A stretch of 64,000 nucleotides of DNA from a virus, in the IMG/VR virus record IMGVR_UViG_3300031754_000001, positions 62,001-126,000 of that record; one strand, written 5' to 3'. The translations under genes and the position numbers were made by a program. Shown here piece by piece: positions 6,052 to 48,014 of this stretch; position 1 is the stretch's first letter, and each line of letters begins with the position of its first letter. Under the pieces are notes generated by a model. It searched no databases. It had not been told where the DNA came from and worked only from the letters and a program-made list of their open reading frames with translations.

Positions 6052-9000
6052 ATGGCCACGTTTCCCGGCAAGCCCCCCAACCCCCTCGGCGTCAAGGTCG
6101 AGCTGAGCCTGAACTCAGTCTGGACCGACATCACCGTCTACGTGATGCTCCGGGATCTCATCACGATCTCGAACATGGGCCGCGCTGACGAATCGGCCAG
6201 CATCACCGCGTCCCAGCTCACCCTCACCCTGAGAAACGACGGCCGGTTCACGCCCAAAAACGCGAGCGGCGCCTATTACCCGTATATCGTCCGCAACACC
6301 CAGATCCGCGTGTCGGTCAACGCGACCAGCCTGACAGGGGTGGCCTACAGCCAGTACCGGTATTCCGGGGAGATCGCCTCCTGGCCGCCCAGCTTCGACA
6401 TCAGCCAGCGGGACACCTTCGTGCAGGTCACCGCATCCGGGATCTGGCGGCGCATCTCGGCGAATCAGGCGAATATCGGCAGCGCCTACGCGCGGTACGT
6501 CAGCCTGCAGACCGGCACGCTGGTCCCGGCCGCGTACTGGGCCATGGAAGACGGCACCAACACCACCGGGTTCGTGCTGTCCGAGGGCACCGGGACCAAC
6601 TTCATAGCGACCGGCACGCCGTCTTACGCCGCCGACAACACCAGCTTCGCCGGGTCCAACGCGATCCCCCAGCTCAACACCGCCCGGCTGGCCGGGAATG
6701 TCTCCTCGGGTGCTACGCCGACGAACAACGTGGTCCAGTTCGCGCTGAGCGTCCCGGCCGCCGGGGACAGCACGGGCATCACTTACGCGGCCGGATCCGA
6801 GCTGTGCAAGATCCTGTCCGGCGGCACCATCGGCCGGATCGATATCTCGCTGATCGCCAACCAGCTTCATATCGCCGGGTACCTGACCTCAGCCGGCGGC
6901 ACTGCCCAGTTCTCCGGCACCGTCACGACCAAGGTCAACGGGGTCCCGGTGCTGGTGAGCGTGGAGATCACCCCGAGCGGCGGCAGCATCAACTGGGCGC
7001 TGCGGATCATCAAGCCGGGCGCCGGGTCGGTGCTGGACCAGGTGACCGGCACCCGCGCCGCCAGCTCGATCGCGGCGGTCACCCAGGTCCAGCTCAACGG
7101 CCAGGGCCGGCTGACCGACACCGCCTGCGGTCAGCTCGGCGTGTTCTACGCGGTGCCCACCCTGGTTTCCTCTGCTTTCGCGATCGGCGGGAACGCCGGG
7201 GAAGGCGCCGTGACCCGGTTCAGCCGGCTGTGCGCCGAGTCGAACATTCCCGCCACGGTCATCGGATCCGGCGGCGCCGCGATGGGGCCGCAGGCCGATG
7301 GCACGATGGCCAGCGTCCTGCAGAGCATCGAGGACGCGGACGGCGGGCTGCTGTACGAGACAAGAGACACCTTCGGCCTCGGCTACCGGACGCTGGCCTC
7401 GATGCAGAACCAGTCCGCCGCGGTGTCGTTCGCCTTCACCGCCGGCGTGCTCGGAGCCCCGCTGGTCCCGACGTACGATGACCAGCTCGTCGTCAACCAG
7501 TGGATGGTCACCAACTGGGACGGCTACGCGGCGCTGGCTCAGCTCACCTCCGGGGCCATCTCCGTCCTGCCGCCGCCGAACGGGGTGGGCAGCGGGTACT
7601 CCAGGTCCAAGACGATCAACGCGAGCACGCACGCCCAGGTCAACGCCATCGCCCAGCAGCTCCTGTTCGAGGGCACCGTCGATGACCTGCGCTTCCCGGT
7701 CGTCACGTTCAACTTCCAGCGTGCCCAGGCAGCCCCGTTCTTCGCCTCGGTTCCCGGCCTGCGGATCGGGGACTACCTGTCCGTCTCGTCCCTGCCCGGC
7801 TACCTCGGCGGCGGCACCGCCAAACAGCTCATCTGGGGCTATACCGAGCGGATGGGCGGCGAGATACCCGGCTGGACCATCGACTACAACACGATCAACG
7901 AAGCCCCGTTCGAGACCGCGTTCTCCCCCGGCGTGTTCTCAGTCACCCAGGTCCCGGCCGGAGCCGTTGCCGCCGGCAGTTCCGTGGGCAGCTCGGTGTC
8001 CGGGGCTCAGCTCGGGGCCGGGTCCGTGCCCGCCACCGCCCTGTCCAACACGATCACCGCGCGCACGATCGGGGGCACGCTCCAGATCATCGGCCCGGCC
8101 ACGCCATATGACTGGACGTTCGCCGTTTCCGGGACCCCGGCGGACGTCAATTACTTCATCTGCACCCAGGATCAGTCGCTTCCCATCGCGGTCGGGGATA
8201 CGTTCACCAACTCCGGCGGCCTCGGCGGCCCGTTCACGATCACCTCGGTCGATTCGCCGGCCGGCGGCAACGTCACCGTGCATTTCACCCCGGCCGCCAG
8301 CTCGGTCATGAGCACGGGCACGCTGACCGGCGGGAAGAACGGCGACCAGTGGATCAACTCCTCCGGCGGCAACCAGCTCAGCCAGTGGGCGGCGGGCGCG
8401 TGGACGCCGATCACCTGGGACGGCACGGCCGTGATCAACGCGGGCACGATCACCGCGACCCAGATCCTCGCCGGGACGATCACCGCGACGCAGATCGCGG
8501 CCGGGATCATCATCGCCGGGGTGGTCAACGGCACCACCATCACGGGCGCGACCATCATCGCGGACGGCGCGTCGGGGGAGTTCCTGGCCTATTCCGGGTC
8601 CCCGGCGACCGGGAACCTGATCGTGTCAGTATCCGGGGCAGCGGGCACGGACGGGTTCAGCAATGCCTACGCCCAGGGCCTGGAAGTCCACCTGGGCGGC
8701 ATCGTCCTGGACAACCAGTCATCCGGGCCGACCGCCGTGACCGGTGCCAGCGTCCTGTATTCCAGCACCGCGGGGCGTCCCCGGTACCTGTCGCAATCCG
8801 GGTCAGACTCGATCCTGCAGCGCTCCGGGACGAACGTATCCCAGTTCACGGTCGGGAACACCGCGACGAACACGATCATCTCCGCGCCGCTGGCCTACTT
8901 CGCCAATGAGGGCAACCAGAACAGCGAGTTCGAGATCCAGATCGACGGGACCGCCACCGGGGGGACATCCGGCCAGAACCTGAACTTCGCCCTGTTCTCG

Positions 9001-9351
9001 GACGGAGTGCAGATAGGCGGCGCGTTCACTGTCGGCAGCGGGATCATCGGTGCCGGCATCACCGCGGGCAAGGGATTCGGGTACACGATCCGGTTCCGGC
9101 TGACCGTTCTCACGACCGGAGCCGGGGGGACGGCCAACACCGCGTCCGATGGCGTTTTCTACATAACCGCCACCAACTTCGGCAACAACACGGCCTCGAT
9201 CGGCAACCAGACCCCGGTGGGAGCGGTCGGCCCCGGCAAGGCGTTCGACACGACCAGCGCGCACACGCTCCAGGCGTACGCCAGCTGGGGGGCCACCAGT
9301 ACCGGCCAGGCGCTGACCACCTACACCACCAGGCTGACCCGCAGGAACTAA
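6052..9351 (+). CDS. large minor tail protein
   Basis: 1099 residues, starting 4 nt after the tape measure stop. The N-terminus resembles actinophage minor tail proteins that follow the tape measure: a beta-rich ~110-residue region with SVWTDITVYV and the NDGRFTPKN and YYPYIVRNT elements. The middle (about 160-370) reads like a jelly-roll or LamG-type insert. The region at about 780-850 has repeated GTITATQI-type strands, as in beta-helical fibre stems. The C-terminal ~250 residues are beta-rich and may be a receptor-binding or tip domain. Family placement rests on gene order and motif resemblance. Confidence 0.85.
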   Translation: MATFPGKPPNPLGVKVELSLNSVWTDITVYVMLRDLITISNMGRADESASITASQLTLTLRNDGRFTPKNASGAYYPYIVRNTQIRVSVNATSLTGVAYSQYRYSGEIASWPPSFDISQRDTFVQVTASGIWRRISANQANIGSAYARYVSLQTGTLVPAAYWAMEDGTNTTGFVLSEGTGTNFIATGTPSYAADNTSFAGSNAIPQLNTARLAGNVSSGATPTNNVVQFALSVPAAGDSTGITYAAGSELCKILSGGTIGRIDISLIANQLHIAGYLTSAGGTAQFSGTVTTKVNGVPVLVSVEITPSGGSINWALRIIKPGAGSVLDQVTGTRAASSIAAVTQVQLNGQGRLTDTACGQLGVFYAVPTLVSSAFAIGGNAGEGAVTRFSRLCAESNIPATVIGSGGAAMGPQADGTMASVLQSIEDADGGLLYETRDTFGLGYRTLASMQNQSAAVSFAFTAGVLGAPLVPTYDDQLVVNQWMVTNWDGYAALAQLTSGAISVLPPPNGVGSGYSRSKTINASTHAQVNAIAQQLLFEGTVDDLRFPVVTFNFQRAQAAPFFASVPGLRIGDYLSVSSLPGYLGGGTAKQLIWGYTERMGGEIPGWTIDYNTINEAPFETAFSPGVFSVTQVPAGAVAAGSSVGSSVSGAQLGAGSVPATALSNTITARTIGGTLQIIGPATPYDWTFAVSGTPADVNYFICTQDQSLPIAVGDTFTNSGGLGGPFTITSVDSPAGGNVTVHFTPAASSVMSTGTLTGGKNGDQWINSSGGNQLSQWAAGAWTPITWDGTAVINAGTITATQILAGTITATQIAAGIIIAGVVNGTTITGATIIADGASGEFLAYSGSPATGNLIVSVSGAAGTDGFSNAYAQGLEVHLGGIVLDNQSSGPTAVTGASVLYSSTAGRPRYLSQSGSDSILQRSGTNVSQFTVGNTATNTIISAPLAYFANEGNQNSEFEIQIDGTATGGTSGQNLNFALFSDGVQIGGAFTVGSGIIGAGITAGKGFGYTIRFRLTVLTTGAGGTANTASDGVFYITATNFGNNTASIGNQTPVGAVGPGKAFDTTSAHTLQAYASWGATSTGQALTTYTTRLTRRN

Positions 9352-9368
9352 CCGCATGCCAGGAGAAT

Positions 9369-9794
9369 ATGGTGACCACGAACCTGCCCGCGCTGGGCAC
9401 TACCACGCACGTATCCAGCGTCACCTACGCGTGCACGTTCGCGCCGACCACCGCGGGCGGCGGGACGGTGATGTTCTCGGTCCCGCAGCCGGTGCAGTTC
9501 CTGTTTACGTTCGACACCGGCCGTACCCAGCCCGACCCGGCCGTCGACCTGTTCAACGTGGTGACGGATTCCTCCTGGTTCGACCAGACCACGGAGGAGG
9601 CGAACATCAGGGCCGCGCTCAACACGATCTGCACGACGATCGGCACGCTGCTCGGCGTCACCCAGGCCGCCATCCAGGCCACGGTCACGGTCCGGCGGAC
9701 ATGGCGGATCGCGGCGAACCAGGCGGGCACCGCCGCGCCCGTGCAGATTCCCGCGTCCCCGGTCGCCTACACCGAGATCATGGCCTACCCGTAG
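9369..9794 (+). CDS. tail-associated protein of unknown function
   Basis: 141 residues with AGGAGAAT just before ATG. The sequence is mainly beta in its first half, with a short helical region (ANIRAALNTICTTIGTLLGV) and a beta-like end. There is no signal peptide or membrane helix. Its place directly after the minor tail protein suggests a virion or tail-tip component; no family is recognised. Confidence 0.7.
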   Translation: MVTTNLPALGTTTHVSSVTYACTFAPTTAGGGTVMFSVPQPVQFLFTFDTGRTQPDPAVDLFNVVTDSSWFDQTTEEANIRAALNTICTTIGTLLGVTQAAIQATVTVRRTWRIAANQAGTAAPVQIPASPVAYTEIMAYP

Positions 9795-9883
9795 CACCCT
9801 GCCGCTCCGGGCACAATAGAACCAGGCGTACCCGCGGCCGTCCTGGAGCCGGGATCACTGTCCCAGTCTCAGGGGAGCGGGCG

Positions 9884-10735
9884 ATGGCTGACGGCGAGGA
9901 CGAGCGCGCGTACGGCGGCGGTCCCGGGCGCACTCCCGGCGGCGGCTGGGTGCCCGTCCCCGACCCGACCACGCTCACCACCGAGGCAGTCGAGCGGGCC
10001 ACCGGGGTATTCCGGCGAGAGCTGCAGGCGCTCCGCGAGACCCTGGAAACCCGGCTGGACGCCGCCGACGCCGACCGCACCCGGATCTGGGAACGGCTCC
10101 GGGACCTGCCGGCCCTGTACGAGGTCGCCGCCTCTCATCTCCGGGATGAGATGATCCAGCGGGACGAGCACACCCGCGAGGTCATCACCCAGCGACTCAA
10201 CGACCTGGACGCCGCCGCCTCCGTTGCCGCCGGGCACATCGAGAAGATCCCCGTCGACCTGACCGGGGACTTCCGCAAGGCCCTGCACGCCGAACGAGAG
10301 TACCTGACCAGCCAGCTGGATATCGTCCGCGCGATCATGACCGAGAAATTCACCGCGGTCGACGGCCGGTTCGGGGAGTCCAAGGTAGCCGTGGATGCGG
10401 CGTTCTCCGCGGCGAAGGAAGCGGTAGCCGAGCAGAACAGGAGCAATGACCGGGCCATCACCATCGCCCAGTCCGGGACGAAAGAACAGCTCACCGCGCT
10501 GAGCAGCGTGACCGATGCCGGCCTGGGCGCGCTGACAGACAAGATCACCGACGCGCGGGACCGGCTGACCGCGATCGAGAACCTGACCCGGGGCATTAAG
10601 GAGGCCGGCGGGGAGGGCCGCGAGAGCCGCACAGAGCAGAAGCTGGGCACCGCCCAGGTCCTGCAGACGGCGGCCCTGATCATCGTGGGCCTCGGCGTCG
10701 TCATCTCGGTTATCGCCCTGATACTCCATAAGTGA
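9884..10735 (+). CDS. coiled-coil protein with C-terminal membrane anchor
   Basis: 283 residues. The start is ATG 9884 after AGGGGAGCGGGCG; the frame is open further upstream but overlaps the previous gene. After a Pro/Gly-rich N-terminus almost the whole protein is heptad-rich helix. It includes KEAVAEQNRSNDRAI, an element that recurs in actinophage coiled-coil membrane proteins near the lysis genes. One membrane helix (about 258-281) ends the chain. It may be a lysis accessory or tail-anchored structural protein. Confidence 0.8.
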   Translation: MADGEDERAYGGGPGRTPGGGWVPVPDPTTLTTEAVERATGVFRRELQALRETLETRLDAADADRTRIWERLRDLPALYEVAASHLRDEMIQRDEHTREVITQRLNDLDAAASVAAGHIEKIPVDLTGDFRKALHAEREYLTSQLDIVRAIMTEKFTAVDGRFGESKVAVDAAFSAAKEAVAEQNRSNDRAITIAQSGTKEQLTALSSVTDAGLGALTDKITDARDRLTAIENLTRGIKEAGGEGRESRTEQKLGTAQVLQTAALIIVGLGVVISVIALILHK

Positions 10736-10836
10736 GCACGGTCAGGTCCAGGTGTCACGCATAGTTACCAGTATCGCCGGCCAGCTCAGCGTATGATCAT
10801 GACCGGGTGACAACCTGGCAACCGGGAGGGATGCTG

Positions 10837-11151
10837 ATGGCTAAGCTGCCTGTCACGCTCCACCCGGTGACCAACCCGACCGGTTACATGGCCACGGCCA
10901 GCGCGGTCTACGCCGCCGCGGTCATGATCTACAACGCCCTTCACCATCACGGCGTCATCGACGTCCCGGTGATCATCGCGGCCGTCACCCTGGCCAGCTC
11001 GCTGCTGACTCACCAGGTCGTCACCCCGGTAGCCCTGCCGAGAGACGGCAACGGCAACCCGCTGGTACCCGCTCCCGCTGCCCCGGCTCTCCCAGCCGGC
11101 AGCGGGAGCGCCGCGGGCGTAGCCGGGGCGGCACCGAGCGCGCAGCCATGA
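10837..11151 (+). CDS. putative holin-like membrane protein
   Basis: 104 residues from ATG 10837, placed after GGGAGGG; ATG 10831 and GTG 10807 are alternatives. Two hydrophobic segments (about 17-33 and 43-60) flank a HHHG turn, followed by a polar Pro/Ala-rich tail. Small size, two helices, a charged tail and a place beside cell-wall enzymes fit a holin, but holins are too diverse for sequence proof. Confidence 0.65.
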   Translation: MAKLPVTLHPVTNPTGYMATASAVYAAAVMIYNALHHHGVIDVPVIIAAVTLASSLLTHQVVTPVALPRDGNGNPLVPAPAAPALPAGSGSAAGVAGAAPSAQP

Positions 11152-11318
11152 CCATGACCCGGCAGGAGTTCGAGGCTTACTGGGCCGTCAATTCCGGGCT
11201 CACTGTCTCTGCCGTCCGGGAACTGGGATTCCATGCCGAGTCCTGTGATTGCGGCGATAGCACGTGCCTGGGTTGGGTGATGACCCACTATCAGGAATCC
11301 GCACGGAGGATAACGTGA
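11148..11318 (+). CDS. small Cys-containing protein
   Basis: 56 residues. It overlaps the stop of the holin candidate by 4 nt (ATGA) and the start of the next gene by 4 nt (GTGA), which supports it as a real gene. CDCGDSTC is a probable metal-binding cluster. No family recognised; it sits inside the lysis cassette. Confidence 0.65.
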   Translation: MTMTRQEFEAYWAVNSGLTVSAVRELGFHAESCDCGDSTCLGWVMTHYQESARRIT

Positions 11319-11896
11319 ACACGCCCGTCAGCACCCTGCAGCCCGGAATTTTCGGGGTTAGTCACGGATCCGGGCTGGGCGGCATGGTCATCCGGGACGC
11401 CACCGGCAGCTGGGCCGGGCACGCCTTCCTGTACCTGGGCAACGGCATGATGGTGGAAGGCGCCCCGCCCGAGGCCCGGATCGTGCCGGCGGGTAAGTAC
11501 GATGACGCGATCTGGGCCTGGCGGATGTGGGATGAGCTGAAGACAGCCCGCGGCTGGACGGATGACGCCGGGACAGCAGCCCAGCTGGCTGTCGTCGCCC
11601 GCGGTCACGGCCTGGTCGGAACCGGGTACGACTGGCCTGCTTACATCGGCTTCGCCGCCGAGGTCGCGCACCTGCGTAATGGCGTTCAGCTTGACCCGGC
11701 GTTCTCCCACGACAGTTACCGGGTGTGCAGCGCGCTGGTCGCGGACGCGGAGGAGTTCGGCGGCGTGCCGCTCAATTTCGTGCCCGAGGACGGTCCCGGG
11801 CTGATCGCCAGTCCCGGCACCCGGGTGGCCATGCCAGTCAATCTCGTTGCCCCGGGCATGCTGCTCGGAATAGCACAGCGTAATGACTGGTGCTGA
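11315..11896 (+). CDS. papain-like (circularly permuted NlpC/P60-type) peptidase candidate
   Basis: 193 residues from GTG 11315, preceded by GGAGGATAAC. His36 in AGHAFLYLG comes before Cys138 in YRVCSALV, the order seen in YiiX-like permuted papain folds rather than classical NlpC/P60. There is no signal peptide, so export would need the holin. Its place behind the holin candidate suggests an endolysin; substrate and activity are inferred. Confidence 0.65.
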   Translation: MNTPVSTLQPGIFGVSHGSGLGGMVIRDATGSWAGHAFLYLGNGMMVEGAPPEARIVPAGKYDDAIWAWRMWDELKTARGWTDDAGTAAQLAVVARGHGLVGTGYDWPAYIGFAAEVAHLRNGVQLDPAFSHDSYRVCSALVADAEEFGGVPLNFVPEDGPGLIASPGTRVAMPVNLVAPGMLLGIAQRNDWC

Positions 11897-11947
11897 ACTG
11901 GGCGTAATCCCTGACGGCCCGGGGCGGTCATGCTACGTTCGGAAAGC

Positions 11948-12214
11948 ATGACCACTGCTAACGGAACCGATCCGGTCACCGGCCCGCTGAAAATCCTTCT
12001 CGGCAGCACTGATTCAGAGCTGTCTACCAGGGATATTGCCCGGCAGCTGCACGTCAGCCAGACGACCATCGTCCGGCGGCTAGAGCAGGCCCGGCAGATC
12101 TGGGACCGCACCCGGCGGCGAGATTTCTGGCGAGACGTGATGTATGCCCTGCTCACGGTATCCGCGGTCATCGCCGCGGTGTCGCTGGCCGTGATAGCGG
12201 CGACTCAGCCCTGA
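11948..12214 (+). CDS. HTH protein with C-terminal membrane helix
   Basis: 88 residues from ATG 11948. Residues about 28-58 form a clear helix-turn-helix (ELSTRDIARQLHVSQTTIVR) and about 65-85 form one membrane helix, so the DNA-binding domain would be held at the cytoplasmic membrane face. Lying between two cell-wall enzyme genes, it could regulate the lysis cassette or link DNA to the membrane. The domain order is seen; the role is inferred. Confidence 0.7.
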   Translation: MTTANGTDPVTGPLKILLGSTDSELSTRDIARQLHVSQTTIVRRLEQARQIWDRTRRRDFWRDVMYALLTVSAVIAAVSLAVIAATQP

Positions 12215-12329
12215 CTCAGGAGCGCATTTTCCGCGGTTCATCCCGGCCGTAAATAGGTTCAGCGCCGTTATTGCCCGGCGAGACCGGCGCGTGCCAGGCT
12301 TCCCGGCGTCGCCACTGCCGGGAGATCAC

Positions 12330-13229
12330 ATGCGCCATTGCGCCGCGGGCCGTCACGCACGGTACCGCACACCCACGTCATTCCCGTCCTCGCTGATCGC
12401 CGCCATGGCCGCGCTCGCGATGGTCCTCGCGATCGGGAGCGCAACCGGTACCTTCGCCTCGGCGGGTGCCCGGCCGCTCGCCGCGCTTGCCGTCCGGGCA
12501 CCGGAGACCAGCAGTGGCGTGAGCGCGGCCATGGCCAGGACCCGTATCACCCAGATGACGATGGCGGCCAGGATAGTCGCCGGGGCCGCCACTGCCGCGC
12601 AGGCCGCCGCGCGTACGTACACGGTCCGGGCCGGCGACACCCTGTCCGGCATCGCGGTGCGGCTGTGCGGCCCGGCTAACGACTGGACGGGCATCTACGC
12701 TGCCAGCAGGGCCGTGATCGGCGCGGACCCGAACCTGATTACCGCCGGGCAGCGGCTTACCGTCCGGTGCACCGATCCGCCCGCCCTGCTGCGCCTGGGC
12801 CGCAATCCCGCCCGGCATGCCGTTTCCGGGACTGCCGTCATCCGGGCCGGCCGTTACGGCCATCCGTACTACTGCGGCGACGGCGACGGCGACGGGTGGG
12901 ACAGGCCCTGCCGCGGCACCGCGCCCGCTGTCACGGTCCGGCCCGCCGGGATCATCTCCTACAGCGGCACCTATTCTTACGCCGGCCTGGAAGCACTCTG
13001 GGAGTCAGCCGGCGGCCCGGACTGGGCAGCACCGCATGCCGCGGAAATCGCCGACTGCGAATCCGGCGGCCGGGTTAACGCGTATAACCCGAGCGGCGCG
13101 ACCGGTCTCTGGCAGATCCTCGGCTCCGTCGTTGCCGGAAGCCTGTATAACCCGTACGTCAACGCGCTCAACGCAGTCGCGAAATTCCGGGCTAGCGGTG
13201 ACACCTTCGCGCAGTGGGTGTGCCAGTGA
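12330..13229 (+). CDS. secreted LysM / lysozyme-like wall hydrolase
   Basis: 299 residues from ATG 12330 after GGGAGATCAC. A signal-type hydrophobic stretch lies at about 20-43. A LysM domain (about 97-145, YTVRAGDTLSGIA) should bind peptidoglycan. An excalibur-like Ca-binding segment follows at 181-194 (CGDGDGDGWDRPC), then a lysozyme/SLT-like domain with Glu244 in ADCESGG and the NPSGATGLWQI element. The same catalytic motif occurs in the tape measure protein. Probably a peptidoglycan glycosidase exported by the host secretion system. Confidence 0.8.
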   Translation: MRHCAAGRHARYRTPTSFPSSLIAAMAALAMVLAIGSATGTFASAGARPLAALAVRAPETSSGVSAAMARTRITQMTMAARIVAGAATAAQAAARTYTVRAGDTLSGIAVRLCGPANDWTGIYAASRAVIGADPNLITAGQRLTVRCTDPPALLRLGRNPARHAVSGTAVIRAGRYGHPYYCGDGDGDGWDRPCRGTAPAVTVRPAGIISYSGTYSYAGLEALWESAGGPDWAAPHAAEIADCESGGRVNAYNPSGATGLWQILGSVVAGSLYNPYVNALNAVAKFRASGDTFAQWVCQ

Positions 13230-13738
13230 GTGCTGAGACGATGCCTGCTGGCACGACATCCGCACAGCGGGTGATCCCCCGCGTCGTGACCGTTCTCCTG
13301 CTGATCATCGCAGGACTCGCGGTCATCCCGTCGCTTGCGGTGCCGGCACAGGCGAGCACCCGGTACGTCGGGGCGCGCATCCTGGACCAGGCCGAGACCC
13401 GGCTCAATGACCCGTACAGCTACGGCTCGGCCGGTCCCTACTACTTCGACTGCAGCGGGCTGGTGGACTGGTCAGCCGTCTCCGTCGGGGAGCGGAACTG
13501 GCCCCGCGACACGTACGGCATCGCCGCCCAGATCGGGTACCGGTTCGTGCTCACCTCGCACCCGGTCCGCGGTGACCTGGCGCTGTGGGGCACCGTACGG
13601 GCGCCGTACCACGTGGAGATCGTGACGGCGTGGAGCGGATGGACATTCGGCGCTGAAACGTCAACATGGGCCGGCCGGGTGACATGGCATTCCAGCGCGT
13701 GGTTCCCGCCGTCGTTCTACCTGCACATCCTCTGGTGA
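13226..13738 (+). CDS. secreted NlpC/P60-type endopeptidase
   Basis: 170 residues from GTG 13226, overlapping the previous stop by 4 nt (GTGA). A signal peptide or anchor spans about 19-43, ending PAQAS. The NlpC/P60 core has Cys76 (FDCSGLVDW) and His129 (PYHVEIVTA). Co-translation with the LysM hydrolase suggests the pair cleave peptide and glycan bonds of the same wall. It is the last gene of the plus-strand late block. Confidence 0.8.
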   Translation: MSAETMPAGTTSAQRVIPRVVTVLLLIIAGLAVIPSLAVPAQASTRYVGARILDQAETRLNDPYSYGSAGPYYFDCSGLVDWSAVSVGERNWPRDTYGIAAQIGYRFVLTSHPVRGDLALWGTVRAPYHVEIVTAWSGWTFGAETSTWAGRVTWHSSAWFPPSFYLHILW

Positions 13739-13741
13739 GCC

Positions 13742-13783
13742 GCGGAGTGCGGTCTGGCCCCCCGCTTACGGGCCGCGCTCCGC
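13742..13783 (+). terminator. stem-loop after the lysis cassette
   Basis: An 11-bp stem (13742-13752 with 13773-13783, one G-U pair) starts 4 nt after the last stop. It lacks a T-tract, so it may be a weak terminator or an mRNA-end stabiliser. Confidence 0.5.
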
Positions 13784-13859
13784 ATCCAGTCGCGCGGTAG
13801 GCTGGCCGGGACACTATACAGAGTCCGGACCTGCCTAGCGCGGCAATGACAATGACGGA

Positions 13860-36292: not shown

Positions 36293-36447
36293 TCATTCCC
36301 TGCCCGGAATGCCCGAAGGTGTTCGAGGTCAGCGACGCGGACCCGGATGCCACGCTGTCCGACCTGTGGGAACACCTGTACGAGCACGCCCCGGACCACG
36401 ACCGGCGGAAGCAGCTGTTCATCAAGGCCCAGGAGCAGGCGGCATGA
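36289..36447 (+). CDS. 52-residue zinc-finger-like protein
   Basis: CPEC near the N-terminus and His residues in LWEHLYEHAPDH make a C2H2-like spacing. It overlaps the helicase start by 4 nt, suggesting coupled expression. Confidence 0.65.
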   Translation: MIIPCPECPKVFEVSDADPDATLSDLWEHLYEHAPDHDRRKQLFIKAQEQAA

Positions 36448-38282
36448 CGGCCCTTCAGTTCACGCCCCGGAACCAGTGGCAGCCGGCCGCCCCCGCCACA
36501 GTGTTCGGCGAGCTGACCGCGGACGGCACCCAGATCGTCCTGATCGGCCAGGGCAGTGACTGGGACCTGGACCAGATCGCCGCGCGGTTGCGGATGCTGA
36601 CCGCGAATCCCGTGCTGGTACGCGACGCGGACGGCCGGGATACCGACGCCATGCTCGTACCCGCCAGCTGGGCGAGCGTGGTCCAGCTCGGCTTCTCGTT
36701 CAACGGCTTCCCCGGGTTCGCCTGGCTGCCGCAACCCCGGCTGAACGAGTGGATCATCGCCGAGACGGTCCGCCGGACCTCCCCGGTGCCGCCGCTGCCG
36801 GACGATCTCTGGCCGCCGTGGCTGGAACCGCGCCCGTACCAGCTGGACGGCGCCGCGCAGATCGCGGCCGAGGGGAAATTCCTGCTCCTGGACGATCCGG
36901 GCGTCGGGAAAACTATTTCAGCGATCCTCGGCCTGCTGGGACGCCAGCACGCGGGACACGAGATCTTCCCGCTGGTCATCGTCGTCCCGTCCTGGGAGGT
37001 CGGCCGGGCCTGGGCCGATGAGATCGCCGCGTGGGCACCGGGCTGGCCGGAACCGGTCATGCACAAGGGGCCGGACCGGTTCGGCAAGATCACCCGCAAG
37101 CGCGGCCAGCCGCCCGGTGACTCGGTGTTCATCACCACCTACGCCACCCTGCGGGCCGACGCCGCCAGCATGCGCGGCCCGCTAGTCCGGCTGGCGCCCG
37201 CCGCGATGGTAGCCGATGAGTTCCACCTGGCTAAGAACCCCCGGGCTCAGCAGAGCCTCGCGCTGCAGCGAGTCGCCCGGCAGGCCGGCACGTTCGTGGC
37301 CCTGTCCGGCACGCCCATTACCTACGACACAGGTGATGTGCAACCGGTGATGGAGGCTGCCTGGCCGGATGACTGGCCGAGCAAGAAACGGATGACCTCG
37401 CGGTACTGCGCGCGAATCGAAGAGGAGTACGGCGAGCGCATCGTGGGCCTGAACCCGGCTGCCGCGCCGGAATTCTTCGCGATCATGGACCGGAACATGC
37501 GCCGGGTCGCCAAGGCCGACGTGCTGCCCTGGCTGCCGCCGAAAATCTGGTCGGTGCGCCGCCCGGACATCCCGGATGAGTGGATGAAAGCGTACCGGAC
37601 TATGGAGGAGGACATGCTGGCGCAGCTGCCGGACGGCTCCGAGCTGCCGGTGATGTCCGTCCTGGTCAAGATGATGCGGCTGAGCCAGCTCGCGTCCTGC
37701 GCGGCCGACGTGGAGCGCACCGAGGAATGGGACGAGAACCTGCAGGCGGTCGTGCCGAAGTACGCGGTCACGCTGAAGCCGCCCAGCTGGAAGGCGGACT
37801 CGCTGCTGGAAGTCATGGCCGAACGGCCCGGGGCACCCGTCGTCGCGTTCACCGCGTCCCGCCAGCTGGCCATGATCACCGGGCAGGCGTGCGAGCAGGC
37901 GGGGCACCGGACCGGGTACATCACCGGGATCGGCGACGGCATCACCAGCAGAACCCGGCAGAAGGCGATCGATGACTTCCAGGCCGGCAAGCTGGACGTG
38001 ATCGTGGCCACCGCCAAGGCCGGCGGCACCGGGATCACGCTCACCCGCGCGGGCACCGCAGTGTTCCTGCAGCGGAACTGGGAGCTGTCCGCCGGGGTCC
38101 AGCCGGAAGACCGGCTTCATCGCATCGGCCAGGAGCACGAGTCCGTGGAGATCATCGACATTGTGGCCGAAAACACGGTCGAAAGCAGGGTAAGGCAGCG
38201 ACTCAGGGAGAAGGCGGGCATGCTGGGTGAGCTAGTACGAGACCGGCGTATCGTGACTGAACTTCTCGGGGGGATCAGGTGA
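36444..38282 (+). CDS. SNF2-type superfamily 2 helicase
   Basis: 612 residues from ATG 36444, which overlaps the upstream gene; longer frames lack support. Walker A DDPGVGKT with Lys156, motif II D258-E-F-H261, motif III LSGTP, and motif VI QPEDRLHRIGQ define a superfamily 2 ATPase of the SNF2/DEXH type. An N-terminal ~100-residue domain precedes the motor. Likely role is DNA translocation in replication or recombination together with the fusion polymerase downstream. Confidence 0.9.
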   Translation: MTALQFTPRNQWQPAAPATVFGELTADGTQIVLIGQGSDWDLDQIAARLRMLTANPVLVRDADGRDTDAMLVPASWASVVQLGFSFNGFPGFAWLPQPRLNEWIIAETVRRTSPVPPLPDDLWPPWLEPRPYQLDGAAQIAAEGKFLLLDDPGVGKTISAILGLLGRQHAGHEIFPLVIVVPSWEVGRAWADEIAAWAPGWPEPVMHKGPDRFGKITRKRGQPPGDSVFITTYATLRADAASMRGPLVRLAPAAMVADEFHLAKNPRAQQSLALQRVARQAGTFVALSGTPITYDTGDVQPVMEAAWPDDWPSKKRMTSRYCARIEEEYGERIVGLNPAAAPEFFAIMDRNMRRVAKADVLPWLPPKIWSVRRPDIPDEWMKAYRTMEEDMLAQLPDGSELPVMSVLVKMMRLSQLASCAADVERTEEWDENLQAVVPKYAVTLKPPSWKADSLLEVMAERPGAPVVAFTASRQLAMITGQACEQAGHRTGYITGIGDGITSRTRQKAIDDFQAGKLDVIVATAKAGGTGITLTRAGTAVFLQRNWELSAGVQPEDRLHRIGQEHESVEIIDIVAENTVESRVRQRLREKAGMLGELVRDRRIVTELLGGIR

Positions 38283-41398: not shown

Positions 41399-41596
41399 AT
41401 GCCGCGCGCGAGAAGCCCGGGTAGGCGGGCCGGGACCTGCAGCCACTGCCAATGGCGATCGATCACATTCCCGGCAGGTCCCGGCCGCCAGACAGACCGG
41501 GGTACCTTTCTCCCCCCGCGAGTGAACGTGTCGGGCGCTTACACGATACCCCGCGGGCTCGCCGGCTACTCCTGCCAGACCCAGGGGGACAGATGA
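41399..41596 (+). CDS. 65-residue zinc-ribbon-like protein
   Basis: ATG 41399 follows GAGGAGGCACGCG, and the stop overlaps the next start (ATGA). CSHC and a late Cys suggest one metal site; the rest is polar. Function unknown. Confidence 0.6.
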   Translation: MPRARSPGRRAGTCSHCQWRSITFPAGPGRQTDRGTFLPPRVNVSGAYTIPRGLAGYSCQTQGDR

Positions 41597-42087
41597 ACAG
41601 CACGGAAATCAGCGGCACGTCATGCCCGCAGTGCGATGACGGCAACTGGAACGACCTTGGCTGCATGACGTGCGGCCTGGAATTCTTCCCGCCGTCCGAG
41701 GCGTACCAGGCTGCGGTACCGGTAAGCCTGCGCATAAAACGACTTCGCGCAAGCTGGGCTCCGGCTCCGCGCCTGACCCCGGCTGAAGACTGTTTCTGGG
41801 GGGCTTGTCTCGCCCGGGGTTACCCGTGGACTGACGATGTACTGCCGCAGGCTCGCATCGGTGCCTACCGGGCGGATTTCCTGCTAGCCGGAGCCAGGAT
41901 CGTTATCGAGATCGATGGCTTCAGCAATCACGCGAAAACCGCTGACATCACGCGCGACCGGCAGCGGCAGCGCTGGCTGCAAGGTCAGGGCTATCAGGTC
42001 ATCCGGTTCAGTAACACCGAAATCCAGCAGGCCCCGGAACGATGCGCGGCTGAAACTGACGCGCTGATTCGCGGGATGCTGTCATGA
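41593..42087 (+). CDS. DUF559/Vsr-like endonuclease with N-terminal zinc ribbon
   Basis: 164 residues. A CPQC...CMTC ribbon (residues ~11-28) precedes a PD-(D/E)XK core: YRADFLL (Asp), IVIEIDG (Glu, Asp) and ITRDRQRQRWLQGQGYQVIRFSN, typical of the DUF559 and very-short-patch-repair folds. Probably a single-strand nick or branched-DNA nuclease in phage recombination; substrate unproven. Confidence 0.75.
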   Translation: MNSTEISGTSCPQCDDGNWNDLGCMTCGLEFFPPSEAYQAAVPVSLRIKRLRASWAPAPRLTPAEDCFWGACLARGYPWTDDVLPQARIGAYRADFLLAGARIVIEIDGFSNHAKTADITRDRQRQRWLQGQGYQVIRFSNTEIQQAPERCAAETDALIRGMLS

Positions 42088-45000
42088 ACGCCCAGGTCCG
42101 GCAGGACGCGCCGGTCTACGCGTCGGCCTGCGCGGATTACTACCTGGCCGGGTGGACGTGCGTGATCCCGGTGCCGCCGGAAGCCAAGTTCCCTCCGCCC
42201 GGCGGGTTCACCGGGGCTGGCGGCCGGGACACCACCCCAGAGGACATCGCCGGCTGGGCGGAGCAGCTGCCCGGTTACTCGATCGCGCTACGGATGCCGG
42301 ACGGCGTGATCGGCATCGACGTCGATGAGTACGCCAAGGGCGAGACCGTCAAGCATGGCGCCGCGACCGTAACCGGGGCCGAGGGGGAATGGGGCGCGCT
42401 GCCGCCGACATGCTCATCGACTGCCCGCGGCCAGGATCAGCCGAGCCGCATCCTGTTCTACCGGGTGCCGGCCGGCCGGTACGCCAGCCAGCTCGGCCCG
42501 GATGTCGAGATCATCCAGCGGCATCACCGCTACGCCGTGGTCGCGCCGTCGCCGCACTCCGCTACCGGGACGCCGTATCAGTGGTACGGCCCGGACGGTT
42601 CCCCCCTGGGCGGGAAAGTCCCGGGACCGGGAGAACTGGCCGCTCTGCCGGAAGCGTGGATCCAGGGCCTGGCCGAGGGCGCCGCGGCAGCCAGCCCGAT
42701 GGCAGCCAGTATCGGCGAGGCCGGGCAGCTGCTGGCCTGGCTGGAGGCTGAGACCGGGCAGGTGTGCACCGACATGGCGCACGCGACGGCGGCGATCCTG
42801 GCCGAGACCACGGCCGCGCACCCCGGCTCCCGGCATGACCTGATGACCAGGGGCATCTACGAGCTGGTCCAGCTGACCGCCGAGGGCCACGGCGGTTACG
42901 GCACGGTCATCGCCCAGCTGCGCGGGCTATGGGGCGAGCTGACCGCCGGGGAAGACCGGGACGCCGAGTTCGGCGACATGATCACCACCGCGGCGCGCAA
43001 GGCCGTCACTGCCCACGGCCCGGTCCCGCAGGCAGCCGATCCGTGCCGGGTGTTCGGCCGCGGGCTGCCCCGGTTCGCCGCGCCCGCACCGGACGTGCCG
43101 CCGGGTGCGGGCCTAGATGATGACGAGCTGCCGCCGCCCGAGGCGCCGAGGTTCTGGTCGCCGTGGGGAGAAGACGGGATCGGCGTGCTGCCATTCGACC
43201 CGCCCGCCGGGCTGGACGGGATGCTGGCCCGCGACGTGCTGGGCCGTACCTGGCCGGTACTGCGGTACGCCCCGGACGCGGGCGCGTGGATCAGGCGCGG
43301 CCCGGACAAGTGGGACGTGATCAAGGGCGACTTGTCCAAATGGGCTGTCGACCTGGTGAGCGTGCTCATGCCGCCCGGTGACCCGGACGCCGCCCAGGGC
43401 AGCCCGGAACGGCTTCAGGCTGACCGGCGCAAGCGGTTCATGTCGAACTCCCCGGCCAACGCGATCGCCGGGAAGATGAACGCGCAGGTCGCCGCCGGGC
43501 AGCACCCGTCCGCAGTGGAACTGGCCGCGCTGGACACTGACCGGGAGATCCTGTGGGCCGGGGGCATGCCGTTCGACCTGCGGAACTCCGACGAGGCTCC
43601 GGCGATCTCGCGGTGGACCGACCCGGGCACCCCGCACCTGCACAGCGCGGGCGTGGTCCCGGAGCTGCGCCCCGTGCCGCGATGGGACGCGTTCCTGGCC
43701 GCGGTCTGGCCGGACGAGGACGTGCGGGCCTGGGCACTGCGCATCCTGTCGATCTCGTTCACCGGCTACCCGGACAAGGCGCTGCCCATCCTGCTCGGCG
43801 ACACCGACCGCGGTAAGACCTCGCTGATCATGCTGCTGATGTCCGTGCTGGGCAGTTACGCCCACGTGGCCGATGCCCGGCTGCTCGCCCCGGCTGACAA
43901 GTCACACGCCTCGATCGTGTACGCGCTGCGGGGCCGGCGGCTGTCGTTCATCGATGAGGCACCGCGCACCGGTCAGCTGGCTACTGAACGGCTGAAGCAG
44001 ATCACGGGCGGCGCGGACCTGACCGGCAACCGGATGGGCGAGAACCCCATCACGTTCCCCACCACTCACACGCTGATCCTGACCGCCAACCCCGAGCACG
44101 AGCCGGTGCTGACCGACGCGGCCATTCGCCGCCGGGTCCGGCTGATCCCGTGCAACGGCGATCCCGCCGCGGTCATCGCGGCCAGGGCGGCGATCGGCGC
44201 GGAGCACGGTGCCGCGTGGCGGGCCGAGGCACCCGGCGTGCTGGCCCGGATGATGGCCGAGACAGCCCGCTGGCTGGCTGACCCGCACAGCTCCGGCAAC
44301 GAGTCCGCGCCGGAAGCAGCGGCCCTGGCGGCGAGTGAGATCATGGCGAGCCAGGACCTCACGCTGCAGTGGCTGCGCGAGGAATGCGAGGATTTCGAGC
44401 GCGGCACCAGGAGCCGTGATCTCTACCTGGCGTTCACGGAGAGTTGCCGGCGGATGGCGGTGAACCCGGCTACGATGCCGTCCGAAACACGGTGGGGACG
44501 GAGGCTGACCGAACTCGGCTACCCCCCATATAAGCGGACGGACGCCAACTACCGGACCCTCCGGATCAAGCCCCCGCAGGTTTTCATGCCCGGACCAGCG
44601 GCACTGAGCGGTCAGAGCGGCGGTTCCGCCCGGCCGCATGGAGGGTCTGAGCCTGAAAATGGAGGGTTCATGGAGGGTTCGGGGTCAGGGCCTCAACCCT
44701 CCATGAACGGAAACACAGCAGGTCAAACCCTCCATGAAACCATCCATATGGAGGGTATGGAGGGTCAGTCAACGTATATAGCACACACACACGCGCGCAC
44801 ACGCGCGCACACGCAGGGGGGTAAAGACCAAACCCTCCATACCCTCCAACCTTCCATACCGCCCCCGGCGGACCCCCCCGCAGCGGAAAACCCCGGTTCG
44901 TCACCGGGCGTGACATCACCGGATGCCGCCAGGGCGGGCAAGCCCCGCAAGGCAGCCAGGCCCAGGGCCGTGAAGGTGCGGCCGGACCCGGTGCTGGAAG

Positions 45001-46871
45001 GCCCGGTGTACCAGCTGCCGGTCATCGTGGCGCGGAATCCGGACGGCGGCGAGCCGCTGGTGCTGTCGTGCTCGCCGGACGACGCGAGGGCGGCGGCAGA
45101 GGGCGCGCTGGCCGGCATGCACGTGGACTGCGAGACCTCGGGGTACCCGCCTGGTCACGCGGATTTCGCGTTGCGTACCGTCCAGCTGGGTGATGAGCAG
45201 ATGGCGGCGGTACTGGACCCGGCTGATCCGGAACAGGCGGCGGCAGTCACGGATCTGGTGGCGCGGGCGCGGGTACTGCACGCGCATTCGGCGGCGGCTG
45301 ACCTGGTGCCGCTCGCCGCAGCCGGGCTCGGCGACGCCGAGGCGATGTGGGCGAAGATGACCGATTCGGTGCTGATCGCCAAGCTGGCCGATCCGTCGCT
45401 GGCCGGGTCGGATGAGAACGAGCTGAAAAAGCTGGCCCGCGATCTGCTGGGAGGCTATGCGGTCAGCCCTCCTGCGGAGAAGGCCCGCAGCGCCCTGTTC
45501 AAGTCCGGTGGCTGGCTGACCGATACCACGGCGCTGACCCCGCCGGAGAAATCCGGATGGGGCCAGGTCAAGTCCGGTTGCGAGGTCATGGCCCGGTACG
45601 CCGGGTCCGACGTGCTGGACCTGGCCGCGGTGCTGCGCGTGCTGCCGGAGCCCGACCAGGCCGTGCTGGCGCGCGAGCGCGAGTTCCAGCGGATGTGCGC
45701 CCGGGTGAGCCATGCCGGGTTCCGGCTGGACCCGGTGCACATCCGGGCCAAGATCGCCGAGTACACCGCAGCCCGCGAAGCTGCCCGCGAGCTGGTGGCC
45801 GGCCTGTGCCCGGATATCACCAACCCGTCCTCCACCAAGGACGTCCCGGCCGCCCTGCTGGGCATGGGCATCCCGCTCGGCCGCACGAAGGACGGCAACC
45901 CGAGCGCCGCCAAGGCCGTGCTGGAGCCGCTGGCGGCCGACGAGAGCTATGAGCATCACGAATTGCTGCGCGGCATCCTGGACTACCGGCATGACGTGAC
46001 CACGCTCGGGCTGCTGCTGGAGCCCCTGGGAAGGCTGTGCGAGCACGGCGACGGCCGGATGCGCCCGGTGGTCTACACGATCAACGCCGACACCGGCCGG
46101 ACCAGCTGCGTCCGTCCCAACGGGCAGCAGTTCTCCCGGCAGGGCGGCATCCGCGCGTGCGTCATCGCGGATGAGGGCATGGCCGGAGTCTCGGCTGACT
46201 TCTCTGGCGTGGAGATCCGGGTCGGCGCCGCGCTGTCCGGTGACAGGGACCTGCTCGCCGCGGAGCTGTCCACGTACTGCCTGGCGTGCGCGTCCGATCC
46301 GTGTGCCTGCGGGCAGGGCCAGACCGGGCTGCACTGGATGGCCGCGCGGATGGCGTTCGGCGCGGGCGCCACCAAGGAAGACCGTTACAACTCCAAGCGG
46401 ATCATCTTCTCCAAGATGTTCGGCGGCGGCCCGAAGTCCGGTGCGGCCCAGGTGGGCGTGCCGGTGGAGGCGGCGTACGCGGTGCACAGCGCGTTCGAGC
46501 AGATCGCGCCTGCGTTCACCGAGTGGGATAAGCAGATGCGCGCCTACGCGGAGGCCGGCAACCGCGGTTTCCGGGCATATTCCGGCCGGGTCATCTGGCT
46601 GCCGCGCGGGCGCAGTCACGCGGCCGGCAATTACGCGATCCAGGGCTCGGCCCGGGAGCTGCTGGTGGACGGGTGCCTGCGCTGGCACCGGACCCGCTGG
46701 GGCCATCTGCCGCTGCTGCCGATCCATGACGAGATCCTGGTATGGGTTCCGGCTGAGGAGGCGCTGGAGGCCCGGGAGACGCTGAAGGCGTGCATGGCCG
46801 GCGAGCTGTACGGCGTGCCGATCGAGGCCAAGGCCGACGAGCCGTTCCTGGCCTGGCCGGATTCTTCGTGA
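42084..46871 (+). CDS. primase-helicase-DNA polymerase fusion
   Basis: 1595 residues in one frame without stops. Domain order: Prim-Pol primase/polymerase (~1-200, Asp79 and Asp81 in IGIDVD); D5-type superfamily 3 helicase (~450-800, Walker A GDTDRGKT with Lys578 and Walker B Asp624-Glu625); a low-complexity linker (~835-975) whose DNA carries iteron-like repeats; a 3'-5' exonuclease domain (~1005-1190, Asp1015 and Glu1017 in DCETSG); and family A polymerase (~1210-1595) with motif A Asp1372 (ADFSGVEIR), motif B Lys/Arg helix (YNSKRIIFSKMFGGG) and motif C His1548-Asp-Glu1550. No 5'-3' exonuclease domain is present. One chain thus combines priming, unwinding and proofreading synthesis. An internal start producing a free polymerase cannot be excluded, as GGAGGG-ATG combinations occur in the linker. 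Confidence 0.9.
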   Translation: MNAQVRQDAPVYASACADYYLAGWTCVIPVPPEAKFPPPGGFTGAGGRDTTPEDIAGWAEQLPGYSIALRMPDGVIGIDVDEYAKGETVKHGAATVTGAEGEWGALPPTCSSTARGQDQPSRILFYRVPAGRYASQLGPDVEIIQRHHRYAVVAPSPHSATGTPYQWYGPDGSPLGGKVPGPGELAALPEAWIQGLAEGAAAASPMAASIGEAGQLLAWLEAETGQVCTDMAHATAAILAETTAAHPGSRHDLMTRGIYELVQLTAEGHGGYGTVIAQLRGLWGELTAGEDRDAEFGDMITTAARKAVTAHGPVPQAADPCRVFGRGLPRFAAPAPDVPPGAGLDDDELPPPEAPRFWSPWGEDGIGVLPFDPPAGLDGMLARDVLGRTWPVLRYAPDAGAWIRRGPDKWDVIKGDLSKWAVDLVSVLMPPGDPDAAQGSPERLQADRRKRFMSNSPANAIAGKMNAQVAAGQHPSAVELAALDTDREILWAGGMPFDLRNSDEAPAISRWTDPGTPHLHSAGVVPELRPVPRWDAFLAAVWPDEDVRAWALRILSISFTGYPDKALPILLGDTDRGKTSLIMLLMSVLGSYAHVADARLLAPADKSHASIVYALRGRRLSFIDEAPRTGQLATERLKQITGGADLTGNRMGENPITFPTTHTLILTANPEHEPVLTDAAIRRRVRLIPCNGDPAAVIAARAAIGAEHGAAWRAEAPGVLARMMAETARWLADPHSSGNESAPEAAALAASEIMASQDLTLQWLREECEDFERGTRSRDLYLAFTESCRRMAVNPATMPSETRWGRRLTELGYPPYKRTDANYRTLRIKPPQVFMPGPAALSGQSGGSARPHGGSEPENGGFMEGSGSGPQPSMNGNTAGQTLHETIHMEGMEGQSTYIAHTHARTRAHTQGGKDQTLHTLQPSIPPPADPPAAENPGSSPGVTSPDAARAGKPRKAARPRAVKVRPDPVLEGPVYQLPVIVARNPDGGEPLVLSCSPDDARAAAEGALAGMHVDCETSGYPPGHADFALRTVQLGDEQMAAVLDPADPEQAAAVTDLVARARVLHAHSAAADLVPLAAAGLGDAEAMWAKMTDSVLIAKLADPSLAGSDENELKKLARDLLGGYAVSPPAEKARSALFKSGGWLTDTTALTPPEKSGWGQVKSGCEVMARYAGSDVLDLAAVLRVLPEPDQAVLAREREFQRMCARVSHAGFRLDPVHIRAKIAEYTAAREAARELVAGLCPDITNPSSTKDVPAALLGMGIPLGRTKDGNPSAAKAVLEPLAADESYEHHELLRGILDYRHDVTTLGLLLEPLGRLCEHGDGRMRPVVYTINADTGRTSCVRPNGQQFSRQGGIRACVIADEGMAGVSADFSGVEIRVGAALSGDRDLLAAELSTYCLACASDPCACGQGQTGLHWMAARMAFGAGATKEDRYNSKRIIFSKMFGGGPKSGAAQVGVPVEAAYAVHSAFEQIAPAFTEWDKQMRAYAEAGNRGFRAYSGRVIWLPRGRSHAAGNYAIQGSARELLVDGCLRWHRTRWGHLPLLPIHDEILVWVPAEEALEARETLKACMAGELYGVPIEAKADEPFLAWPDSS
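44638..44857. repeat. iteron-like 9-bp repeats in the primase-polymerase linker
   Basis: ATGGAGGGT occurs at 44638, 44659, 44670, 44748 and 44757. Its reverse complement occurs at 44696, 44727 and 44832, with variants at 44841 and 44849. Copies pair into hairpins (13-bp perfect 44667-44679 with 44695-44707; 9-bp 44727-44735 with 44748-44756). The density and mixed orientations resemble replication-origin iterons. Confidence 0.75.
44781..44814 (+). repeat. CA/CG alternating purine-pyrimidine tract
   Basis: (CA)n and (CG)n alternate for ~34 bp and encode His/Thr/Arg residues of the linker. Such tracts can form left-handed DNA under negative supercoiling. It lies beside the only AT-rich patch of the linker (ACGTATATA). 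Confidence 0.7.
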
Positions 46872-47156: not shown

Positions 47157-47389
47157 CCGCCGGCTGGGTCCCGGTCACCAGTTCCGCGTTCGCGCGGATG
47201 AGCCAGGCCCGGCGGAATGAGTCCCTGGCCTGCGCGATAGCCGAGCTGGCGGTCATCCAGGCCGCGGTGAAGACGGCGGGGCCGGGGCCGGGCGCCCTGC
47301 TGTACGCCATGCTCAGCGTGACCCGGTACGGCTGCGTCCGGGTTGACGGCGACGGGCGGCTGGCAGTCTGGGCGGGTGACCCGCGGTGA
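47153..47389 (+). CDS. unknown 78-residue protein
   Basis: Helical with a short beta-like end (YGCVRVDGDGRLAVWAG). 4-nt overlaps with both neighbours. Function unknown. Confidence 0.66.
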   Translation: MTAGWVPVTSSAFARMSQARRNESLACAIAELAVIQAAVKTAGPGPGALLYAMLSVTRYGCVRVDGDGRLAVWAGDPR

Positions 47390-47523
47390 CCGGCACGCAG
47401 TGGGTGCCCGAGCTGGCGGACGACTGCGCCTGCCGGTGGACGTCGCCGTCCGGGCAGCCCGGCTGGATCCTGGAGAAGCGCCACGACGGGTGCAGGTCCG
47501 CCGTGCACGGGAAGGGACCGTGA
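47386..47523 (+). CDS. 45-residue Cys-containing protein
   Basis: GTG 47386 overlaps the previous stop (GTGA) and its own stop overlaps the next GTG. CAC and a later Cys/His suggest a metal site. Function unknown. Confidence 0.6.
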   Translation: MTGTQWVPELADDCACRWTSPSGQPGWILEKRHDGCRSAVHGKGP

Positions 47524-48014
47524 CCCGCAGTGCGGTGATCAGCGGCGACCGGGTGTACCGGTACGTGCTGACCCGCCGCTGGTCCGCCGCCCCGGCCATG
47601 CCGTGGATGTGCCTGAACCCGTCGACCGCCGACGCGGATACCGACGATCCGTCGATCCGGCGGATGTGCGGGTTCGCCCGGCGCGAGGGCTGCGGAGGGA
47701 TCTGCGTGCTCAACCTGTACGCCATGCGCTCCCCGGATCCGGGTGCGCTCCGGGACGGCGCCAGCCTGGACCCGGTAGGCCCGGATAATGACCGGTGGAT
47801 CGCCGGCCTGCGGATCGAGTTCGCCGTCCGTGCGGTTGTCCCGGTCACGGTTGCCTGGGGCGCGAACCCGCTGGCGGCGGCCCGGGTTCCGCGGGTCATG
47901 GAACTGCTGGCCGGGCTGCCGGCGGTGTGCCTGGGCACGACCAGATCAGGTGCGCCCCGGCACCCGCTGTACGTCCGCGCCGATGCTCCGCTCGTGCCGT
48001 GGGTGATGTCGTGA
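47520..48014 (+). CDS. DUF1643 protein
   Basis: 164 residues from GTG 47520. WMCLNPSTADADTDDPSIRR matches the DUF1643 core (xLNPSTADxxxxDPTIRR), with the conserved Arg/Cys-containing region after it. The family is common in phages and bacteria and uncharacterised enzymatically. Confidence 0.82.
   Translation: MTRSAVISGDRVYRYVLTRRWSAAPAMPWMCLNPSTADADTDDPSIRRMCGFARREGCGGICVLNLYAMRSPDPGALRDGASLDPVGPDNDRWIAGLRIEFAVRAVVPVTVAWGANPLAAARVPRVMELLAGLPAVCLGTTRSGAPRHPLYVRADAPLVPWVMS

Follow-up and report, generated by a model that had tools for sequence, protein, structure and literature searches.

A predicted single-chain phage replicase with a putative iteron origin in its coding linker

Can the replication machinery of a phage, and the site from which it starts, be carried by one gene? 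The question is raised by an open reading frame (ORF) of 1595 amino acids in the IMG/VR virus record IMGVR_UViG_3300031754_000001, of which a stretch of 64,000 nucleotides was analysed (the window, bases 62001-126000 of the 139,583-base record). The original prediction had described this ORF as a Prim-Pol primase, a D5/SF3 helicase, a 3'-5' exonuclease and a family A polymerase (PolA), joined through a 'repeat-built linker' into a 'complete minimal replisome' on one polypeptide. We consider it likely that the ORF encodes a single chain serving the phage as both replication initiator and replicase, and that the DNA of the linker is the replication origin; the machinery and its start site would appear to be carried together in one gene. 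The coordinates of the features are collected in Table 1.

The ORF was found to be one open frame with an ATG start and zero internal stops. It contained a Prim-Pol match at residues 18-189 (Pfam PF09250, E 3e-20), followed by DUF5906, a helicase-type P-loop family, at residues 572-678 (E 6e-7), a sub-threshold match to DNA_pol_A_exo1 at residues 1014-1126 (E 0.07) and DNA_pol_A at residues 1241-1583 (PF00476, E 1e-32). PHROG 1156 (primase) spanned residues 8-824, PHROG 17 (DNA polymerase) residues 1012-1586 and the NCBIfam 3'-5' exonuclease/DNA polymerase model residues 1012-1572. The catalytic residues were invariant across the homologues, namely the DxD pair D79/D81 of the archaeo-eukaryotic primase (AEP), Walker A G572-G577-K578, Walker B D624-E625, sensor N669 and R684 of the helicase, D1015/E1017, D1073 and D1176 of the exonuclease, and D1372, K1438 and HDE1548-1550 (motifs A, B and C) of the polymerase, the exonuclease and polymerase residues being renumbered by +973. 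The AlphaFold model of residues 1-839 had a mean confidence score (pLDDT) of 83. Its residues 9-202 matched the pRN1 ORF904 primase-polymerase 3m1m (Z 10.4), and its residues 360-831 matched vaccinia D5 (8apl, Z 20.5), the primase-helicase of the Staphylococcus aureus pathogenicity island (SaPI) SaPI5 (7om0, Z 20.0) and NrS-1 (Z 15.8). The name PriCT-like for residues about 204-311 is suggested by the model.

The chain was thus found to contain the N-terminal Prim-Pol DxD, the D5-type Walker A/B with sensor and the C-terminal winged helix of a Prim-Pol/SF3 primase-helicase, together with the Exo motifs I-III and Pol motifs A, B and C of a proofreading family A polymerase. The domain matches and invariant residues bear out the four modules that had been predicted in one intact frame; the list had omitted a fifth, the P4-like winged helix at residues about 750-830. 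The polymerase was the sole PolA of the 139,583-base record in a Pfam search, which found no DnaB, Pol III alpha or single-stranded DNA-binding protein in this possibly incomplete record; host factors are therefore probably needed. The description as a complete minimal replisome is plausible.

Homologues were obtained from a profile search of IMG/VR and bacterial genomes, with 37-84% identity in the primase-helicase half. Single-sequence scans of viral and bacterial collections gave no matches, and the relatives were reached by alignments only. The phage-isolate collection (50,697 records) contained no record with one place covering 80% of the protein, and none of its phages carried the fusion; the plasmid collection likewise contained no such record for the primase-helicase half. 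The fused architecture was found in 41 ORFs including that of the window, six of them duplicates, leaving 35 distinct; helicase, primase, exonuclease and polymerase were present in one chain at the gene level in all 41. The carriers were IMG/VR contigs and actinobacterial genomes or prophages (Nocardioides, Micromonospora, Labedaea and Jatrophihabitans), several of them genomes of cultured isolates; relatives with such a prophage in culture include Micromonospora zingiberis and Nocardioides sp. Root190.

The linker was compared in 36 distinct homologues, comprising the 35 fused ORFs and L019, in which the frame break falls beyond the linker, in the polymerase half. Its length varied from 102 to 201 residues. 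Summed over the 36 homologues, the coding frame contained 0 stops (36/36), whereas the other five frames contained 179, 181, 144, 90 and 162; in the window's own linker, each of the other frames had 2-5 stops and the coding frame none. As judged from these counts, the linker frame is kept open by selection, and its conservation in independent homologues serves as the best available substitute for read mapping. Translation as a single chain would follow from the absence of stops in all 36 linkers.

The linker DNA was found to contain a dense cluster of short repeats (iterons). Of the 13 exact copies of the word TGGAGGGT in the 139,583-base record, 9 fell in the linker, within 210 bp and in both orientations. 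The word ATGGAGGGT occurred in 8 copies in the 64-kb window, all at 44638-44840, against an expected 0.38, and 0/100 shuffles reached 8. The densest 8-mer cluster of the ORF was located in the linker in 37 of the 41 fused ORFs (31/35 distinct), the top cluster exceeded 20 synonymous-codon shuffles in 37/41, and the linker cluster was the densest of the genome in 9/9 whole records examined. The third-position GC content (GC3) was about 0.68-0.69 in the linker and about 0.88-0.90 outside. The copies of TGACGGGT were distributed over the frames as 34, 30 and 0 (n=64), the empty frame being the one that reads a TGA stop. The linker repeats are taken to act at the DNA level because the same 8-mer was found in 2-3 reading frames and on both strands of the linkers, beyond synonymous shuffles. 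The 'repeat-built linker' of the original prediction was therefore right as to the repeats; as a mere linker it did not hold, since the evidence favours DNA-level repeats that are most likely an origin.

The repeat cores varied between phages (ACCCGTCA, ACCCTTCA, ACCCTCCA, ACCCTGCA, ACCCGACA, ACTGGTCA, AACTGTCC, GCGTCACT and TCCGTCAC), whereas their arrangement was conserved. The array contained three copies one way, followed by one inverted copy, a pair, a gap of about 70-90 bp and a pair the opposite way (orientation pattern ---+--++, spacings about 21, 11, 18, 49, 9, 78 and 9). At least 7 of the 8 template positions were matched in 25/36 homologues, where random placement gives about 4. The template was partly built from the homologues on which it was tested, and the matches of the divergent cores ACTGGTCA, AACTGTCC, ACCCGACA and TCCGTCAC weigh most. 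The locus-wide weakest 50-bp duplex was located within the linker, plus or minus two positions, in 24/42 loci. An alternating purine-pyrimidine tract was present in many linkers, its length being 35 bp in the window and reaching 47 bp in L019. Short repeats clustered at one locus and a locally adjacent, easily melted segment are the anatomy of an iteron origin, and origin activity of the linker would be consistent with it.

The isolated winged-helix model was found to match the P4 origin-binding domain 1ka8 best (VIA-align, Z 8.4, root-mean-square deviation 2.2, 75 aligned), followed by RFX domains (Z 8.2 and 7.4). Foldseek alone was weak for this domain (E 0.016 for RFX5, E 0.25 for P4 1ka8), and P4 was ranked first by VIA-align. 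An alignment scan found two residues of the wing hairpin, 822 and 817, to be the best non-linker predictors of the repeat variant. At iteron base 6, G was found with K822 and T with N822; at base 7, T was found with H817, and K/R817 accompanied C or G. Because the tree-based sign test was short of independent pairs, the alignment columns were also scanned directly. Among 1469 columns, 822 alone tracked base 6 without exception in 4 phylogenetically separate pairs, and base 7 was tracked by columns 817 and 59 and by linker column 862. A double switch of bases and wing residues was seen between L037 and L034, which are 85% identical. The covariation is strong but not conclusive, and it supports the winged helix as the cognate binder of the iterons. 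If the wing code is true, N822K would shift the preference from ACCCTCCA towards ACCCGCCA and K817H towards ACCCTTCA.

Under the proposed mechanism, the P4-like winged helix that closes the helicase half would bind the iterons midway along its own gene, reading them mainly through wing residues 817 and 822. The iterons would serve as a scaffold for SF3 helicase hexamers, which would open the weak duplex lying between the iteron groups; primers would be made by the Prim-Pol domain and extended by the tethered proofreading PolA. A wider reading is put forward tentatively, as less likely than not. In it, one ORF would amount to an entire portable replicon with protein and origin inseparable, any DNA carrying the gene would start and carry out its own replication, and the two wing residues would set a readable specificity code that diversifies between phages and prevents cross-talk of their origins. 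If true, the linker would be a class of sequence selected simultaneously as protein frame and as origin at a fusion seam.

Several observations weigh against the linker as an origin read by the fused protein. In L019, the nearest relative with 84% identity across the primase-helicase half, the frame is interrupted within the exonuclease/polymerase half and not within the linker; the interruption could reflect either a sequencing error or a genuine split. Iterons were absent in two distinct homologues (L044 and L053), and only degenerate iterons were found in L046 and L050. Weaker duplexes exist elsewhere in the window's own record, so the linker is only locally weakest. The GC-skew minima of whole records marked the linker inconsistently and were uninformative as an origin test. 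The covariation was limited to 4 independent phylogenetic pairs per base on well-supported branches, with which the sign test alone cannot reach 0.05, and L048 and L049 (core GCGTCACT) deviated from the wing code.

Two other explanations of the locus were weighed. The ORF could yield a separate primase-helicase and polymerase, through internal initiation in the linker or proteolysis, which we regard as unlikely. The linker is unstructured and variable, the window's iterons contain GGAGG with in-frame ATG at 44670, 44748 and 44757, and other actinophages usually have the two as separate genes. Against these points, a plausible Shine-Dalgarno start was present in just 11/36 linkers and at scattered positions, no conserved internal ribosome site was found in the linker among the 36 homologues, the common iteron TGACGGGT lacks GGAGG, and 100-200 codons, unneeded for internal initiation, are kept open in every homologue. 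It is a little less likely again that the winged helix of the protein binds the iterons but that these serve as an autoregulatory operator or as a partition or packaging site, not as the origin. Repeats with a cognate DNA-binding domain are alone no proof of initiation, and GC skew gave no consistent origin signal; however, the weak duplex sits among the iteron groups, unfused relatives have iteron clusters next to the initiator gene, the same layout is a proven origin in SaPIs and pRN1 (PMC7581432, PMC4234260), and an operator in mid-gene, about 2.5 kb from the ORF start, would be unusual.

The two remaining explanations were rejected. That the linker is a mere low-complexity peptide, its repeats arising from protein-level repetition or codon bias and not from a DNA element, would suit a Pro/Gly/Ser-rich peptide of variable length; it is made very improbable by the occurrence of the 8-mers in several frames and on both strands, by their conserved spacing and by the GC3 drop. 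An assembly artefact or frameshift error joining two adjacent genes could be suspected in a single metagenomic viral contig, but 40 further ORFs of the same architecture, several from genomes of cultured isolates, leave it a negligible chance. The preferred reading remains that of an initiator-replicase with its origin in the linker.

The unfused relatives suggest how such a gene may have arisen. The densest repeat cluster was located -20 to +224 bp from the end of the Prim-Pol-helicase gene in 17/40 loci, and within the final 300 bp of the gene in 7 further loci. In Gordonia phage Hibiscus (L015 7298-7600), 9 copies of CGTGGACA start 18 bp past the Prim-Pol gene. This array overlaps the annotated hypothetical gene 55 and may be an origin that has gone unrecognised in this isolated phage. 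The iterons read by SaPI Rep lie directly downstream of its gene (PMC7581432), and 166 bp downstream of orf904 are required in pRN1 (PMC4234260). An initiator gene with its origin directly downstream would have been joined in frame to a downstream polA, and the origin would have become a coding linker; fusion across a pre-existing downstream origin is the economical and probable history. If the origin reading is true, gene fusion can absorb an origin with both functions kept.

One-protein phage replicases are already known from GP55 of lactococcal phage 1706 and its homologues, a 'four-in-one replicase' of helicase, AEP and family B polymerase (PolB) (PMC12205980). The one-protein architecture, predicted at the gene level for the present ORF, is shared, whereas GP55 has a family B polymerase, another primase/helical domain and hosts of other phyla, and the accessible part of that paper does not report an embedded origin for it. 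The present replicase would work like GP55, but its family A polymerase sequence indicates that it is not a GP55 homologue. Prim-Pol, D5 helicase and proofreading PolA, in place of PolB, would represent a second, independent route to a one-protein phage replicase.

The initiator logic is likewise known. Phage P4 alpha shares the primase, the D5/SF3 helicase and a winged helix that binds origin repeats, with the closest fold for residues 750-839, but contains a TOPRIM-type primase (PMC4234260) and no fused polymerase. SaPI5 PriRep and SCCmec Cch2 share the SF3 helicase and a C-terminal domain that reads iterons directly downstream of the gene (PMC7581432; 7om0), but have no fused PolA, and their origin lies outside the coding sequence. 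In pRN1 ORF904 and NrS-1, Prim-Pol and SF3 helicase are present in one chain, followed in ORF904 by a winged helix, and pRN1 has its essential origin region just downstream of orf904 (PMC4234260); both lack a proofreading PolA, and the pRN1 origin is a stem-loop, not iterons. Origin iterons inside an initiator coding region, with sequences differing between phages, are known from lambda O, P22 18 and phage L 18 (PMC8022706), which are initiators only, with helicase, primase and polymerase from the host or separate. The phiC31-like phages (phiBT1, Attoomi, Rowa, Heather and Samy) contain a homologous PolA (27-32% identity) beside a primase-helicase gene, but as separate genes, the primase half being more distant and similar in the helicase region only.

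The domain combination as such may already have been noticed, since a 2024 paper mentions, in one sentence without details, D5-like helicases fused to Toprim/Prim-Pol primases and a proofreading family A polymerase (PMC10853773). New here is the combination of a conserved chain of Prim-Pol, SF3 helicase, P4-like domain and proofreading PolA with a geometrically conserved, sequence-diversifying iteron array at the fusion seam and a candidate two-residue recognition code. With this code, the way in which P4-like domains recognise origins becomes open to direct tests in laboratory phages or plasmids, and a primer-independent, self-targeting, proofreading replicase could be a useful reagent.

Table 1. 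Features of the replicase locus (window positions unless another locus is named)
Feature	Position	Strand	Remarks
Fused replicase ORF	42084-46871	+	1595 aa; 40 further ORFs of same architecture
Prim-Pol (archaeo-eukaryotic primase) domain, residues about 10-203	42111-42692	+	PF09250; model match 3m1m; invariant D79/D81
Helical (putatively PriCT-like) region, residues about 204-311	42693-43016	+	AlphaFold model all helix, pLDDT mostly 80-90
D5-type SF3 helicase, residues about 370-745	43191-44318	+	Structure matches; invariant Walker A/B
Winged-helix putative origin-binding domain, residues about 750-830	44331-44573	+	P4 fold match; iteron covariation
Candidate base-reading wing residues	K817 44532-44534; N822 44547-44549	+	Covariation with iterons
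Linker with putative replication origin, residues about 836-973	44589-45002	+	Low GC3; stops confined to other frames
Left iteron group	44638-44704		ATGGAGGGT at 44638, 44659, 44670 (+); ACCCTCCAT inverted at 44696
Central iterons	44727-44765		ACCCTCCAT inverted at 44727; degenerate copy at 44739; ATGGAGGGT pair at 44748 and 44757
Weakest 50-bp duplex of surrounding 20.8 kb, candidate unwinding element	44732-44781		Nearest-neighbour stability scan
35-bp alternating purine-pyrimidine tract GCACACACACACGCGCGCACACGCGCGCACACGCA	44781-44815		
Right iteron group	44832-44857		ACCCTCCAT at 44832; ACCCTCCA at 44841; degenerate ACCTTCCAT at 44849
3'-5' proofreading exonuclease, residues about 1010-1180	45111-45623	+	DxE, D and YxxxD motifs invariant; NCBIfam
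Family A DNA polymerase, Pfam span residues 1241-1583	45804-46832	+	PF00476; motifs A, B, C invariant
L019 frame break	L019 11200-11500		

The polymerase half was found to vary in two further ways. L030 (ORF 7977-12665) and L044 (7986-12866) contained the same initiator half followed by a very different PolA (23-25% identity); the polymerase module was therefore exchanged at the linker seam, with a dense iteron array retained in L030 and no iterons in L044. Apparent inteins were present in L020 (ORF 7947-13802), L021 (7965-13631) and L024 (7986-13442). They occupy three separate conserved positions in the polymerase half: within motif B, ahead of the IQGTARE motif and following ADTGRMS. They begin with Cys and end at an N/S or HN/C boundary; Pfam named no intein in L020 and L021, the two scanned.

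Two other repeat clusters were also found. Mycobacterium phage Catdawg (L016 1528-1830) contained six copies of the near-palindrome GTTGTACA/TGTTGTACA, intergenic and far from the Prim-Pol gene, which are probably an operator array. A dense cluster of CCAGGCCG, GAGCCACCA and overlapping words was located at the extreme end of the present record (G000:C1:139485-139583, L008 end) and possibly explains where the contig stops. In the window, an SNF2-type helicase was found at 36309-38282, followed by a DUF559/Vsr-like nuclease ORF at 41452-42087, which overlaps the replicase start by 4 bases (ATGA), and by a DUF1643 protein (E 7e-31) at 47343-48014, shortly downstream of the replicase.

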